64,000 nt of DNA from Rhodohalobacter sp. SW132 (GTDB lineage: Bacteria; Bacteroidota; Rhodothermia; Balneolales; Balneolaceae), in contig NZ_QUOK01000001.1 in the NCBI RefSeq assembly GCF_003390325.1, positions 310,001-374,000 of the forward strand, in the 5' to 3' direction. This document shows positions 9,461 through 15,497 of the stretch, in pieces; position 1 is the stretch's first letter; each line of letters starts with the position of its first letter. The notes below the pieces were generated by a model. It saw only the letters and a list, made by a program, of their open reading frames with translations, was not told the DNA's origin and did no database searches. A program made the position numbers and the translations under genes.

Positions 9461-10306
9461 CTATTGAGGTGAGTTTATTTTTTGCTCCGAAACTACAGGC
9501 AGCCAACGCCCGTCACTGAACGTAAAGGGTACGGTTTCCGCTTTTACAAATTGGCGAGAGGCTTTTTCCCAGCGACGGACTTCTATCTTAACCCTGTCCG
9601 TTGATACATGAATGACATTAAAGCTGTTGGCTTCATCCCGCAGCCGGTTCGAAACTGCTGTGCCGGCTTGAGCAACTACAATTGATCGGTCGGATGAGGG
9701 ATAAAATGTACGGATTTCACCGGTGTAGCCATGATGAAGATGTCCGGCAAGGAGAAGGTCAACCTTACACTCTTCCAGAATTTTTAAAGCCCTTCCGGCG
9801 CGGCCGACCAATTCTATTTTTTTATCCTCGGCACCTGGTGGAGGTATGAATGGGTGATGTGTGACAACAATTTTAAAGAAAGAATCCGGAATACCGGACA
9901 AAATGGATTCCATTTCTTGTATTTGTTCGGGTGAGATTCTTCCGTTTTTCCAGGTAAGAGATCGGGCCGTATTGATACCAAGGACCGAAAGATTGTTATC
10001 TGTATAACTGGGAAAAAGATCTCCGGTGATATATTTTTTATAGCGGCCAAGAGGGTTCAAAAATCGTCTGAAAATATCAAAAAGCGGGATATCATGATTG
10101 CCGGGAACGTTGATTTGAGGTTTTGGAAGCCGTTCAATAAATCGAGCCGCATCACGGTACTGAGAATTTCGCGCCCGCTGTGTGAAATCCCCACTGTTGA
10201 TTAGCATATCAGGGTTCAGGCGGTTTAGTTCCCGAACAAGGTTTTCGGCAACTTCCTCATCAACCGTTCCGAAATGCAGATCTGAAATATGGGCAATAGT
10301 TTTCAT
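9461..10306 (-). CDS. Calcineurin-like metallophosphoesterase
   Basis: A 281-residue cytosolic phosphoesterase with every metal-binding motif of the calcineurin-like family: DLHFG (Asp9, His11), SGD (near 39), GNHD (near 70-73), a HHP motif (near 155) and GHLHHG (near 200). It resembles the CpdA/Icc group that cleaves cyclic nucleotides or other phosphodiesters with two metal ions; the substrate is not identifiable. Its ATG overlaps the stop of the upstream lipid-kinase gene by 4 bp (ATGA), so the two are co-translated and may act on phospholipid or nucleotide pools together. Confidence 0.88.
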   Translation of the reverse strand: MKTIAHISDLHFGTVDEEVAENLVRELNRLNPDMLINSGDFTQRARNSQYRDAARFIERLPKPQINVPGNHDIPLFDIFRRFLNPLGRYKKYITGDLFPSYTDNNLSVLGINTARSLTWKNGRISPEQIQEMESILSGIPDSFFKIVVTHHPFIPPPGAEDKKIELVGRAGRALKILEECKVDLLLAGHLHHGYTGEIRTFYPSSDRSIVVAQAGTAVSNRLRDEANSFNVIHVSTDRVKIEVRRWEKASRQFVKAETVPFTFSDGRWLPVVSEQKINSPQ

Positions 10307-11196
10307 GGAGTGATAACATTTAAGCTGTTTCGCTCTGTTTTGAACCGAAGAGGGGAACTCAAGAGTACATTTTCACCGTCTATCGCTACCCGAACTTTTT
10401 TTCTTCGGGGGATAACGGTTAATTCATCAAGCAGTTTGGTTTCAAGTGTATCTGTATTGGCCACTCCCCTGGTTGTAATTTGCAGGGCGGTACTGTACAG
10501 TGACCATATTCTTGAGGAAGAAGAAAGACAAAGCCATATTCTGCCGCCATTTAAGGATGTACGCGTAAATCCTGCTTCAATCGAATCACTATACTCATTG
10601 TTACCAACAAACAAAAAAGGAGTGAGTAGCTTCTTTGTTTTTCCGTCGTATTTGATCGTAAGTCTCTTATACGGAATTTTGTTCATTACAACCAATGCAG
10701 CCACGATTTTAGCCCGCCATTTAGACCAACCATGTTTATCTGTTCGAACCTCTCTGTGCCGAACCAGGTCCGGGTACATTCCCAAGGTAGCGTTGTTAAT
10801 GAAATATCGCCCATTTACGTTTCCAAGGTCAACTTTCCGGTAGTTTGGTTGATTCAGAAGAGCAATGGCTTTTTCGGGATCCTCCGGTACGCCAATATCT
10901 CCGGCAAAATTATTTTTGGTACCAAGAGCTAATACAAGAAGTGAGGTATCCGACCCTGCCAGTAATGATGCTGCTGCACTGATGGTGCCGTCCCCGCCCC
11001 CGGCGATAAACAGTTCAACACCGTTATCGATGATTCGCTTCATCTCATCGAAAACTTTTTCCCCGGGAACAATTGCAAGATTTTCGGCATCGACCCGGTC
11101 AGCCAGAAGGCTTCTGATTTTATCCAGCCGTTCCTTCTTTTCAGCAGGGGATAAAATTCCCGAACCTTCATTTAAAACAGCACCAATTTTTTTCAT
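10303..11196 (-). CDS. Diacylglycerol/lipid kinase family protein
   Basis: A 297-residue protein of the DAGK catalytic family (YegS/BmrU/DgkB type). The nucleotide-binding signature GGGDGTIS is at residues 66-73, and the usual N-terminal alpha/beta and C-terminal beta-sandwich lobes can be followed. Such enzymes phosphorylate diacylglycerol or a related membrane lipid with ATP at the inner face of the cytoplasmic membrane. It is translationally coupled to the metallophosphoesterase gene. A CAGGGTG heptamer array begins 108 bp upstream of its start codon, so its promoter is close to or beneath that array. Confidence 0.87.
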   Translation of the reverse strand: MKKIGAVLNEGSGILSPAEKKERLDKIRSLLADRVDAENLAIVPGEKVFDEMKRIIDNGVELFIAGGGDGTISAAASLLAGSDTSLLVLALGTKNNFAGDIGVPEDPEKAIALLNQPNYRKVDLGNVNGRYFINNATLGMYPDLVRHREVRTDKHGWSKWRAKIVAALVVMNKIPYKRLTIKYDGKTKKLLTPFLFVGNNEYSDSIEAGFTRTSLNGGRIWLCLSSSSRIWSLYSTALQITTRGVANTDTLETKLLDELTVIPRRKKVRVAIDGENVLLSSPLRFKTERNSLNVITP

Positions 11197-11303
11197 AGTT
11201 GTGATACTATTGAAAAGGTTACTTGTTTCAAGTTAATTGCGGGTCAGGCTACATCATATTGGATTTTAAGAAAATATAAAGAGGTGAGTTGTAAATTTAT
11301 TTT

Positions 11304-11429
11304 CAGGGTGCAGGGTGCAGGGTGCAGGGTGCAGGGTGCAGGGTGCAGGGTGCAGGGTGCAGGGTGCAGGGTGCAGGGTGCAGGGTGCAGGGTGCAGGGT
11401 GCAGGGTGCAGGGTGCAGGGTGCAGGGTG
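11304..11429. repeat. Perfect tandem array of 18 x CAGGGTG
   Basis: Eighteen uninterrupted head-to-tail copies of the 7-bp unit, followed by a partial unit (CAGG). No spacers are present, so it is a simple VNTR rather than CRISPR. It lies between a flagellin terminator and the lipid-kinase start codon. Absence of mutations between copies points to recent expansion by slippage. Confidence 0.97.
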
Positions 11430-11595
11430 CAGGCAGGAAGTTGACATCGCCTCAACGCAAAGTCAAATTTAATACTAAAAATAGTGCATTATTTTCGAAT
11501 GGTTTTTTTCTGCTCTTTGATGATCACTCATAAAATTTTGAAGTATCCACACTTGGACCGAGAACCCTTGCGCCCTGAACCTTGGACCCTGAAAC

Positions 11596-11630
11596 AAAAA
11601 AAAGCCTCCCGATACTATCGGAAGGCTTTT
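11596..11630 (-). terminator. Flagellin rho-independent terminator
   Basis: On the minus strand an AAAAGCCTTCCGATA / TATCGGGAGGCTTTT hairpin is followed by eight Ts, 30 bp after the flagellin stop codon. The same hairpin follows the third flagellin (14217-14251). Confidence 0.85.
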
Positions 11631-11659
11631 GGAATGTTGATCCATTATGTAATCTGTAC

Positions 11660-12607
11660 TTACCCGAGGAATCCGAGTACAGATTGAGGACCCATATTCG
11701 CTTGTGCCAGTGCAGACGTTGAGGTCTGCTGCAAAATCTGCAGTCTTACAGACTCACTCTGCTCCTTGGCAAAGTCGGCATCCATAATTCTACTTGAAGC
11801 CGAACTGTTGGCGCTGATCGATTGCGAGAGCGTTACTTCACGAATACTCAGCGATGATTGCGTCATACCGATTTCGTTCACTCGCTCATTCATCCCTTCA
11901 ATCGCTGTATCCACAGCGTCGATAAAGCTTCGGAAATCATCAGCCGTAGCTGCATCAAACGACAGACCACCCTGTCCGCCTGTGCCCGCAGCTGTGGCGG
12001 AAATCGCTCCCGATGCCGCTCCTATCTCAGTATCACCACCTGCTGCAAACAACTCACCGATGTTTACCGCTGACAGATCCGTCGTCAGCGTATCGGAAGA
12101 CCGCTCGCCTACCTGGAACGTAAGTGAAAAATCACCGGTATTTGTCGCTGCACCAGAAGAGGCATCTACAGCACCATTCAACAGCTCAGAATCCTGGAAT
12201 ACGGTTTGGTTGGCAACATCATTGATATCTTCGGCCAGCTTCTCAATCTGGGCGCCGATGTATCCACGCTCATTTTCTCCAAGCGTATCGTTGGCTGCCT
12301 GTGTGGCAAGAGCTTTCATTTCGATCAGGCTATCCATAACTGTATCAAAACTTGACTCGGCAATATCAAGAACCGACTTGGCGTCGCCTACATTCTGAAG
12401 CGCCTGCTCCAGGCCGGCAACCCGGCTGTTTAATTTCGTTGCAATTGCATATCCGGCAGCATCATCTTCCGCACGGTTGATCCGGAGACCGGTAGAGAGT
12501 TTCAGCTGGTTGTCAGCAAGGTCTCTGTTGATTCGATTCAGCGACAACTGGGAATCCAGCGACTGAATATTGGTATTGACTCTGTTTAAATCGCCAAAAC
12601 TTGACAT
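11660..12607 (-). CDS. fliC: Flagellin (copy 1)
   Basis: A 315-residue flagellin, the subunit of the flagellar filament, exported through the flagellar type III apparatus. The N-terminal D0/D1 helix (VNTNIQSLDSQLSLNRIN, residues 10-27, then STGLRINRAEDDAAGYAIA) and the C-terminal helix (QILQQTSTSALAQANM, ending SVLGFLG) are well conserved. The central domain is short and rich in Ser, Thr, Ala and Gly (about residues 150-215), which offers O-glycosylation sites. The protein is identical to that of the third flagellin gene. It has its own sigma-28-type promoter and terminator, so it is monocistronic. A 15-copy heptamer array starts 100 bp upstream of the ATG. Confidence 0.97.
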   Translation of the reverse strand: MSSFGDLNRVNTNIQSLDSQLSLNRINRDLADNQLKLSTGLRINRAEDDAAGYAIATKLNSRVAGLEQALQNVGDAKSVLDIAESSFDTVMDSLIEMKALATQAANDTLGENERGYIGAQIEKLAEDINDVANQTVFQDSELLNGAVDASSGAATNTGDFSLTFQVGERSSDTLTTDLSAVNIGELFAAGGDTEIGAASGAISATAAGTGGQGGLSFDAATADDFRSFIDAVDTAIEGMNERVNEIGMTQSSLSIREVTLSQSISANSSASSRIMDADFAKEQSESVRLQILQQTSTSALAQANMGPQSVLGFLG

Positions 12608-12659
12608 GTTATATCACCTTTTGTTTGTTCGTATAATTAAGTTGCATTCGTTAAAAGGT

Positions 12660-12686
12660 TTATCGAAGGCGAAAAGGCGATCTTAA
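12660..12686 (-). promoter_or_regulatory. Sigma-28 (FliA) type promoter of flagellin 1
   Basis: On the minus strand TTAAGATC - 11 bp - TTCGATAA, close to the enteric FliA consensus TAAAGTTT-N11-GCCGATAA. The expected start leaves a leader of roughly 45 nt before the ATG at 12607. The same boxes with the same 11-bp spacing precede the other two flagellins. Confidence 0.75.
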
Positions 12687-12706
12687 ATTTTTTTTAATTT
12701 TTTTTG

Positions 12707-12811
12707 CAGGGTGCAGGGTGCAGGGTGCAGGGTGCAGGGTGCAGGGTGCAGGGTGCAGGGTGCAGGGTGCAGGGTGCAGGGTGCAGGGTGCAGGGTGCAG
12801 GGTGCAGGGTG
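12707..12811. repeat. Perfect tandem array of 15 x CAGGGTG
   Basis: Fifteen uninterrupted copies followed by CAGGCAGGAAG, the same junction as the first array. Its edge is only 20 bp upstream of the -35-like box of the flagellin 1 promoter, so changes in copy number would alter DNA next to the RNA polymerase site. Confidence 0.97.
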
Positions 12812-13001
12812 CAGGCAGGAAGTTTGACATCGCCATCAACGCAAAGTCAAATTTAATACTAAAAATCGCAGATATTTCCAGACTTTCGATATTCACTGCA
12901 GTTCATTCATTAAACTTAGAAGCATTTGACTTACCCCTTGTGCCTTGCGCCCTGCCGGTGCCTTTCCCGGTCCCGGCGAATGCCGGGGAACCTTGAAACA
13001 A

Positions 13002-13034
13002 AAAAAAGCCTCCCTGATCTCTCGGGAGGCTTTT
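13002..13034 (-). terminator. Flagellin 2 rho-independent terminator
   Basis: AAAAGCCTCCC paired with GGGAGGCTTTT around a short loop; on the minus strand a run of seven Ts follows. It lies 36 bp after the flagellin 2 stop codon. Confidence 0.85.
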
Positions 13035-13069
13035 GAATAATGGTACTGTTTATGTGTCAGATTCAGTTC

Positions 13070-14014
13070 TTACCCGAGGAATCCGAGTACAGATTGAGGA
13101 CCCATATTGGCTTGTGCCAGTGCAGAGGTTGAAGTCTGCTGCAGAATCTGAAGCCGAATAGATTCACTCTGTTCTTTGGCAAAATCCGCATCCATAATTC
13201 GACTCGATGCTGCACGGTTGGCACTAATGGATTGAGAGAGCGTCACTTCCCGAATACTAAGTGATGACTGCGTCATACCGATTTCGTTTACACGCTCATT
13301 CATCCCTTCAATCGCTGCATCCACTGCATCGATAAAGCTTCGGAAATCATCCGCTGTTGCAGAATTGAATGTTAACGATCCCTGGCCTCCGGTGCCTGCA
13401 GCTGTTGCTGTAATCGATCCGGCTGTGGCCCCTATTTCATTATTGGTACCTTCAGTAAACAACTCACCGATATTTACTGCAGACAGATTAGTCGTCAGCG
13501 TATCTGTAGATCGTTCACCCACCTGGAAAGTAAGGGTTAAATTACCGGTGTTCGTTGGATTTCCGGCTGAATCTACTGCACCATTCAACAGCTCAGAATC
13601 CTGGAATACGGTTTGGTTTGCGATATCATTGATATCTTGCGCCAGCTTCTCAATCTGTGCACCGATGTATCCGCGCTCATTTTCTCCAAGCGTATCGTTG
13701 GCAGCCTGGGTAGCAAGAGCTTTCATTTCGATCAGGTTGTCCATTACCGTGTCAAAACTTGACTCGGCAATATCAAGAACCGACTTGGCGTCGCCTACAT
13801 TCTGAAGCGCCTGCTCCAGGCCGGCAACCCGGCTGTTTAATTTCGTTGCAATTGCATAACCGGCAGCATCATCCTCAGCACGGTTAATTCGAAGACCTGT
13901 TGACAATCGAAGCTGATTGTTTGCCAGATCTCTGTTAATTCTGTTCAGTGACAACTGGGAATCCAGCGACTGAATATTGGTATTGACTCTGTTTAAATCA
14001 CCAAAACTTGACAT
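13070..14014 (-). CDS. fliC: Flagellin (copy 2, divergent)
   Basis: A 314-residue flagellin that matches the other two copies almost residue for residue in the N-terminal D0/D1 (one or two changes, e.g. ADNQLK to ANNQLR) and in the C-terminal helices. It differs mainly in the central surface-exposed part (about 145-215, where SAGNPTNTGN replaces ASSGAATNTGD) and at ANRAASSR near 280. It therefore packs into the same filament but presents a different variable surface. It has its own terminator and its own sigma-28-type promoter. Overall identity to the other copies is roughly 90 percent by eye. Confidence 0.97.
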   Translation of the reverse strand: MSSFGDLNRVNTNIQSLDSQLSLNRINRDLANNQLRLSTGLRINRAEDDAAGYAIATKLNSRVAGLEQALQNVGDAKSVLDIAESSFDTVMDNLIEMKALATQAANDTLGENERGYIGAQIEKLAQDINDIANQTVFQDSELLNGAVDSAGNPTNTGNLTLTFQVGERSTDTLTTNLSAVNIGELFTEGTNNEIGATAGSITATAAGTGGQGSLTFNSATADDFRSFIDAVDAAIEGMNERVNEIGMTQSSLSIREVTLSQSISANRAASSRIMDADFAKEQSESIRLQILQQTSTSALAQANMGPQSVLGFLG

Positions 14015-14069
14015 GATAATTCACCATTTATTTAGTTGTTCATCTATACAATCTTATAGATATATGGAG

Positions 14070-14096
14070 TTATCGTTACCGAATTCGTGATCTTAA
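14070..14096 (-). promoter_or_regulatory. Sigma-28 (FliA) type promoter of flagellin 2
   Basis: On the minus strand TTAAGATC - 11 bp - AACGATAA. The -35-like box is identical to that of the other flagellins although the surrounding spacer and leader differ, which shows selection on the boxes themselves. The leader to the ATG at 14014 would be about 50 nt. Confidence 0.75.
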
Positions 14097-14144
14097 ATAG
14101 ACTTAAAATTATTTTTTATAAAATTAACATGTTTTTTAGTATTG

Positions 14145-14181
14145 CAGGGTGCAGGGTGCAAATGTTGACGCAGTCAACATT
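14145..14181. repeat. Two-copy CAGGGTG remnant joined to a perfect palindrome
   Basis: Two heptamers (14145-14158) are followed by AATGTTGAC-GCA-GTCAACATT (14161-14181), a hairpin with perfect 9-bp arms. In the two longer arrays the equivalent position holds a related but broken sequence (GTTGACATCGCCTCAAC). This may be the contracted or ancestral form of the array element. Confidence 0.7.
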
Positions 14182-14216
14182 TTGTCACCTGCGCCCTGAA
14201 CCTTGGACCCTGAAAC

Positions 14217-14251
14217 AAAAAAAAGCCTCCCGATACTATCGGAAGGCTTTT
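14217..14251 (-). terminator. Flagellin 3 rho-independent terminator
   Basis: Same hairpin as at 11596-11630, part of the direct repeat: a strong GC stem followed by eight Ts on the minus strand. Confidence 0.85.
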
Positions 14252-14280
14252 GGAATGTTGATCCATTATGTAATCTGTAC

Positions 14281-15228
14281 TTACCCGAGGAATCCGAGTA
14301 CAGATTGAGGACCCATATTCGCTTGTGCCAGTGCAGACGTTGAGGTCTGCTGCAAAATCTGCAGTCTTACAGACTCACTCTGCTCCTTGGCAAAGTCGGC
14401 ATCCATAATTCTACTTGAAGCCGAACTGTTGGCGCTGATCGATTGCGAGAGCGTTACTTCACGAATACTCAGCGATGATTGCGTCATACCGATTTCGTTC
14501 ACTCGCTCATTCATCCCTTCAATCGCTGTATCCACAGCGTCGATAAAGCTTCGGAAATCATCAGCCGTAGCTGCATCAAACGACAGACCACCCTGTCCGC
14601 CTGTGCCCGCAGCTGTGGCGGAAATCGCTCCCGATGCCGCTCCTATCTCAGTATCACCACCTGCTGCAAACAACTCACCGATGTTTACCGCTGACAGATC
14701 CGTCGTCAGCGTATCGGAAGACCGCTCGCCTACCTGGAACGTAAGTGAAAAATCACCGGTATTTGTCGCTGCACCAGAAGAGGCATCTACAGCACCATTC
14801 AACAGCTCAGAATCCTGGAATACGGTTTGGTTGGCAACATCATTGATATCTTCGGCCAGCTTCTCAATCTGGGCGCCGATGTATCCACGCTCATTTTCTC
14901 CAAGCGTATCGTTGGCTGCCTGTGTGGCAAGAGCTTTCATTTCGATCAGGCTATCCATAACTGTATCAAAACTTGACTCGGCAATATCAAGAACCGACTT
15001 GGCGTCGCCTACATTCTGAAGCGCCTGCTCCAGGCCGGCAACCCGGCTGTTTAATTTCGTTGCAATTGCATATCCGGCAGCATCATCTTCCGCACGGTTG
15101 ATCCGGAGACCGGTAGAGAGTTTCAGCTGGTTGTCAGCAAGGTCTCTGTTGATTCGATTCAGCGACAACTGGGAATCCAGCGACTGAATATTGGTATTGA
15201 CTCTGTTTAAATCGCCAAAACTTGACAT
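14281..15228 (-). CDS. fliC: Flagellin (copy 3, identical to copy 1)
   Basis: A 315-residue flagellin whose translation is identical to the gene at 11660-12607, inside the second copy of the direct repeat. It has the same D0/D1 ends, short Ser/Thr/Ala/Gly-rich centre, sigma-28-type promoter and terminator. The difference from copy 1 is the upstream neighbourhood: beyond the T-tract there is no heptamer array, and the next gene upstream is the helicase-PLD gene. Two identical copies give a dosage effect and a substrate for recombination that would delete or re-assort flagellin 2. Confidence 0.97.
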   Translation of the reverse strand: MSSFGDLNRVNTNIQSLDSQLSLNRINRDLADNQLKLSTGLRINRAEDDAAGYAIATKLNSRVAGLEQALQNVGDAKSVLDIAESSFDTVMDSLIEMKALATQAANDTLGENERGYIGAQIEKLAEDINDVANQTVFQDSELLNGAVDASSGAATNTGDFSLTFQVGERSSDTLTTDLSAVNIGELFAAGGDTEIGAASGAISATAAGTGGQGGLSFDAATADDFRSFIDAVDTAIEGMNERVNEIGMTQSSLSIREVTLSQSISANSSASSRIMDADFAKEQSESVRLQILQQTSTSALAQANMGPQSVLGFLG

Positions 15229-15280
15229 GTTATATCACCTTTTGTTTGTTCGTATAATTAAGTTGCATTCGTTAAAAGGT

Positions 15281-15307
15281 TTATCGAAGGCGAAAAGGCG
15301 ATCTTAA
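15281..15307 (-). promoter_or_regulatory. Sigma-28 (FliA) type promoter of flagellin 3
   Basis: TTAAGATC - 11 bp - TTCGATAA on the minus strand, identical to the flagellin 1 promoter, being part of the direct repeat. Confidence 0.75.
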
Positions 15308-15497
15308 ATTTTTTTTAATAAAAAAGTGAAAAAGAAAAAGAGAGAGGTAAAAGCGCCCATATGATGCATTCAAGCTTATTTAGCAAAGTGGAGTTTCTTC
15401 AAATTACAGATTAATGATAGTAAATGGAGGATGACATCTGCTCCTTTTGATAGAGAGATACAATTAATTTAAAGGCTCTTAAAATCAGATAATTGCA

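Follow-up and report, generated by a model that had tools for sequence, protein, structure and literature searches.

The perfect seven-base arrays of the flagellin and lipid-kinase cluster are best explained as slippage-prone, expanded arms of intergenic heptad hairpins that are dispersed over the whole genome, with their position next to flagellin genes being incidental; we put the probability of this explanation at roughly two thirds. Members of the family occupy the spacers between genes, with CARGGNN on one strand and NNCCYTG on the other, often directly after a stop codon or terminator and before the leader or promoter of the next gene, and their facing arms can fold into long imperfect hairpins. 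Replication slippage would occasionally lengthen and homogenise an arm, giving the mutation-free runs of 18 and 15 units, and most arms would remain short, heterogeneous and constrained at five of the seven positions. We infer a passive or hairpin role of the heptads: if they have any role, it would most likely be that of hairpins with a flexible sequence, located in spacers or where transcripts end. Their proximity to flagellin would then reflect the flagellin duplication, which multiplied such spacers, and not flagellin control.

The window (the stretch of 64,000 nucleotides of Rhodohalobacter sp. SW132 that was analysed) contains genes for a lipid kinase of the diacylglycerol-kinase type (10303-11196, Pfam DAGK_cat), for flagellin 1 (11660-12607) and flagellin 2 (13070-14014), and for flagellin 3 (14281-15228), which is identical to flagellin 1, has no upstream array and was not named in the original prediction. 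Three CAGGGTG arrays lie on the forward strand: 18.6 copies that form the long arm in the spacer between flagellin 1 and the lipid kinase (11304-11433), where the non-coding strand is the G-rich one, 15.9 copies upstream of flagellin 1 (12705-12815) and a two-unit array of 2.3 copies upstream of flagellin 2 (14143-14158). As originally described, none of them contains a mismatch; the chance expectation from sequence shuffles was 0. The mutation-free copies fit recent slippage, read here from the sequence of one assembly. The distances to the start codons, predicted as about 100-130 bp, measure 107 bp for the lipid kinase, 99 bp for flagellin 1 and about 130 bp for flagellin 2, and the gap between the 15-copy array and the flagellin -35-like box, claimed to be 20 bp, is 19 bp.

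The proposal that these arrays belong to a repeated element, consisting of array, spacer and a degenerate companion on the opposite strand, was borne out for all three. The companion arms lie on the reverse strand and comprise four CARGGNN units at 11566-11593, adjoining the terminator-like hairpin of flagellin 1, three units at 12936-12956, and the arm of the third element at 14190-14214 (heptads 14194-14214). The flank of about 53 bp that the arrays were said to share accompanies the first two (11431-11482 and 12813-12866, both forward, 96% identity) and is absent at the third. The reverse strand also has putative terminators, a hairpin with a T run for flagellin 1 (11596-11630), read directly from the sequence, and a hairpin with arms at 13004-13014 and 13024-13034 for flagellin 2 (13002-13036). 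The terminator-like hairpin of a flagellin spacer is followed directly by the companion arm, and the long array lies on the non-coding strand, facing the promoter of the next gene. A central hairpin, AAATGTTGAC-GCA-GTCAACATTT, is located between the arms of the third element (14160-14182, assigned to neither strand). Hairpins of the form GTTGAC-loop-GTCAAC occur at just two sites of the genome, 14164-14178 of the window (G000:C1:324164-324178) and G000:C5:346134-346149, both with heptad arms on either side. Furthermore, a REP-like hairpin (CCCGGCATTCGCCGGGACCGG...) stands beside heptads at three loci, namely at 12953-12988 of the window, near the array of L031 and near position 5110 of L107.

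Compared with dinucleotide shuffles, the inverted pairs fold better, with z from -2.6 to -8.9 overall. Within the window z was -3.1 for 12700-12990, -4.2 for 11300-11600 and -3.2 for 14138-14216; elsewhere it reached -8.9 (L109) and -5.2 (L114). The C-rich strand of the first array folds by itself with a z of -9.1.

CAGGGTG is one variant of a heptad family, CARGGNN, in which positions 1-5 are nearly invariant and positions 6-7 variable. Seven loci of the 5.08-Mb draft genome carry three or more perfect CAGGGTG units, two in the flagellin cluster and five elsewhere (9, 10, 5, 3 and 17 perfect units), the latter neighboured by unrelated genes. Three consecutive CARGGNN units gave 100 overlapping matches genome-wide versus 5 for the reversed pattern, these genome-wide statistics being built on pattern searches and sampled stretches of a draft of 45 contigs. 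We counted the units between two in-phase CARGG anchors, which bias the count somewhat, and excluded homogeneous CAGGGTG runs. Of the units counted, 35 of 41 in the own genome and 58 of 60 in relatives matched CARGG; positions 6-7 varied widely and position 7 was almost never C. Neutral slippage followed by mutation should leave variation at every one of the seven positions, so that a constraint or a copying rule would appear to act on five of them. The CARGG constraint points beyond slippage alone, to selection or a copying rule, and in this respect counts against the explanation that we favour. The arrays show the features of heptameric repeats, with a seven-base tandem unit, perfect or heterogeneous, at many loci; they are found as convergent inverted pairs or singly, and many single arrays have no partner. 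For the window, L109, L110 and the rpsI-rpsB locus, no Rfam family reached the gathering threshold, and a literature search for the literal repeat found nothing. A perfect eight-copy array of another unit, CAGGGGA, is located 11 bp from a stop codon at G000:C1:610282-610335 (L106, 2783-2836).

The arrays are frequently placed right behind genes. Among 30 intergenic arrays at the sampled loci, 11 start no more than 10 bp behind a stop codon that is read on their G-rich strand, compared with 1.75 expected from random placement within the same gaps (ORFs called heuristically), and none of 2000 simulated placements reached 11. On the C-rich strand only 1 of the 30 starts within this distance. Some arrays, the long ones of the window included, do not adjoin a stop codon, which counts against the explanation that we favour.

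Comparison with relatives showed that the sites, and the units that occupy them, change. In the rpsI-rpsB spacer, CARGGNN/CCYTGNN hairpins are placed between the rpsI stop codon and the conserved rpsB leader in the own genome, in three congeners and in one other genus (G012). All five fold (z -2.6 to -3.6), and the differences between G001 and G002 in the central stem keep the pairing, a weak indication given the few sequences. Most of the other relatives compared have no heptads in this spacer, and two have different ones at the same place, TATCGGT-TATTGGT-TATCGGT in G014 and ATTCGTT-ATTCGTT-ATTTGTT in G033. At the stop codon of DAHP synthase, a pair of CARGGNN arms is found in congener G002, one of them with 7 perfect units and the other beginning at the stop codon, where the own genome has a plain hairpin; here presence and absence are seen, at a divergence too high to read a target-site duplication. 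Taken together, the two spacers indicate that the elements are gained and lost at orthologous sites. The rpsB leader itself (CACACATACRCAGCGACC...GATTAGCG...GACCTGTGTAGAGGACTAACTC; L155, G000:C9 about 182200-182450) is conserved family-wide with paired ends, and it had no Rfam match in the own genome.

The original prediction regarded the array as a phase-variation-like VNTR whose copy number may tune flagellin expression. Slippage would add or remove units in front of the promoter, and kinase expression would be tuned along with that of flagellin. This reading, which we hold to be very unlikely, draws on long perfect arrays prone to slippage, on the location of one of them 19 bp upstream of the sigma-28-like promoter of flagellin 1 (TTTAAG-N16-CGATAA, 12660-12687, reverse strand) and on a neighbouring gene that encodes a surface structure. 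However, the identical flagellin 3 keeps the same sigma-28-like promoter (15281-15308, reverse) without any array upstream, flagellin 2 has only 2.3 units, 47 bp from its own sigma-28-like promoter (14070-14097, reverse), and five of the seven loci that carry at least three perfect units have unrelated genes as neighbours. The sigma-28-like box is also present at many flagellins of relatives, and at the flagellin loci retrieved from them we found no heptad pairs except a single one in L144. Array-free flagellin 3 and the array-free loci of relatives thus imply that flagellin control does not include the array as a conserved component, and on these grounds we rejected flagellin-specific regulation as the main reading. 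Moreover, the array is placed ahead of the -35-like box and not within the core promoter, and the 16-bp spacer between TTTAAG and CGATAA is constant in 3/3 flagellins, so that promoter spacing is unaltered by the array; the unit number shifts neither this spacing nor a reading frame, as it does at contingency loci. The seven-base arrays are probably not an on/off switch of flagellin; a G-rich tract of this length may nonetheless exert some regulatory effect from 19 bp upstream of the promoter. The lipid-kinase orthologue in G002 (49% identity) also has no upstream array, but its gene context differs and it provides no clean empty-site test. A literature search on flagellin, phase variation and heptamer together found nothing, and the case cautions that a striking array next to a surface-structure gene need not mean a phase switch.

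A different function would follow if (GGGTGCA)n formed G-quadruplexes that affect local transcription or replication. The 18 and 15 GGG tracts of the two long arrays would allow it, and GGGAATC heptamers form quadruplexes in vitro (PMC4692102), so that this reading could apply to the perfect arrays alone, the only members with conserved quadruplex-forming G tracts. As an account of the family it is improbable, since the constraint is on CARGG, common CAAGG units break the three-G tracts, and G tracts are absent from the heptads that relatives carry at comparable sites. The frequency of CAAGG units means that the repeats fit the kind of heptameric intergenic repeats and not the sub-kind of quadruplex repeats. 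Descent from a miniature inverted-repeat transposable element, with the heptads as ends of a mobile element, would account for the inverted arms, for presence and absence at orthologous sites and for the 53-bp flank common to two loci, and the arrays resemble a tandem repeat inside a MITE (PMC4596501). We nevertheless rejected it as highly improbable: neither a core nor ends are shared by the copies, a genome-wide search with the 53-bp flank gave just two good matches and the GTTGAC hairpin has just two sites, many arrays have no partner, and spacer and arm lengths vary at every locus. It is least credible of all that the unit number or the identical flagellin duplicate as such were assembly artefacts. 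The draft consists of 45 contigs, the longest arrays (about 120-130 bp) are near the typical short-read length and not one of the 1130 bp of the duplicate differs, but arrays of several lengths occur with distinct flanks on five contigs, and a congener carries a 7-unit array. The doubt on this score is limited to exact unit counts, the assembly being a draft.

Copy A of the duplicated segment (11569-12698) holds flagellin 1, the 91 bp that precede it and a portion of the companion arm; copy B (14190-15319) is the counterpart with flagellin 3, the two being 100% identical over 1130 bp. One boundary of this duplication falls within the companion arm and hints at an exchange between heptad elements, by recombination or gene conversion, or else at an effect of the assembly.

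Separate reports describe tandem heptamers from Xanthomonas, cyanobacteria, Beggiatoaceae and Bacteroidetes, none with a known function. According to earlier work summarised in PMC4679880, heptamers outnumber the other long simple repeats in most genomes, and polymerase slippage was suggested as the cause. Closest in overall organisation are the GGGAATC and GGGGA(C/T)T repeats of Xanthomonas and Nostoc, for which Rehm et al. (2015, PMC4692102) considered phase variation unlikely. Like the repeats described here, they are intergenic and dispersed, have a partly conserved unit and inverted pairs, and form perfect as well as heterogeneous arrays (2-26 units); those of Xanthomonas also lie near stop codons when the repeat is on the coding strand, and upstream of genes when it is on the non-coding one (PMC4692102). 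The unit differs, being CARGGNN here, with an unconserved three-G tract and CAAGG common. The TAACTGA direct repeats (MacGregor 2015, PMC4679880) are likewise intergenic heptamers with a patchy distribution among relatives, occur also in Bacteroidetes, and have AACYRAT relatives in the host's family of genomes. In contrast to CARGGNN, the Beggiatoaceae copies lie just upstream of start codons, are rarely inverted and have another sequence (PMC4679880). Both sides of the P6b stem of the Nostoc trnL intron consist of degenerate heptads, either TDNGATT or NNTGAGT, of which NNTGAGT has five fixed and two free positions as in CARGGNN; the two motif classes interchange at one site with similar structure, which makes this the nearest parallel to rpsI-rpsB (PMC4476775, PMC3488679). 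Unlike our family, P6b is a single locus within a group I intron and not dispersed between genes. BrickBuilt, the MITE of Porphyromonas gingivalis with a minisatellite, resembles the elements in its intergenic tandem-repeat body and inverted ends, but its unit is 23 nt long with defined leader and tail subunits, whereas CARGGNN has no common core or ends (PMC4596501).

What is added here is the measured constraint with five fixed and two free positions, the strong tendency of arrays to abut stop codons, and orthologous sites with differing units (rpsI-rpsB), and with such comparative data the question of why the unit is seven bases long becomes testable. One speculative answer, which we consider unlikely, is that the 7-base periodicity and not the sequence is conserved: post-stop hairpins whose heptad (CARGGNN, AACYRAT or others) switches between relatives at one site, much like the two P6b motif classes, would be made and kept by one shared process or constraint that works in steps of 7 nt, for example polymerase-linked copying or a repeat-binding protein. 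Intergenic tandem repeats in about 392 kb sampled from the family had period 7 in 16 segments versus 9, 0, 2 and 1 for periods 5, 6, 8 and 9, short periods passing the threshold by chance more easily. Three consecutive AACYRAT units occur in 19 of 98 relatives and three CARGGNN units also in 19 of 98, with just four genomes common to both. A scan of named genomes located exact CAGGGTG arrays at 46 loci spread over many phyla, a considerable share of them inside heuristic ORFs; CAG-type heptads arise widely, and this has no bearing on common descent. Two exact CAGGGTG arrays in Neolewinella lie shortly after stop codons. Several loci of the relative G031 (L119, L120, L121) carry a repeated palindromic module (ACCTCCAAGCGTGCGAAGCACCTTGCAGCGTCCGG) that has heptad arrays as its flanks.
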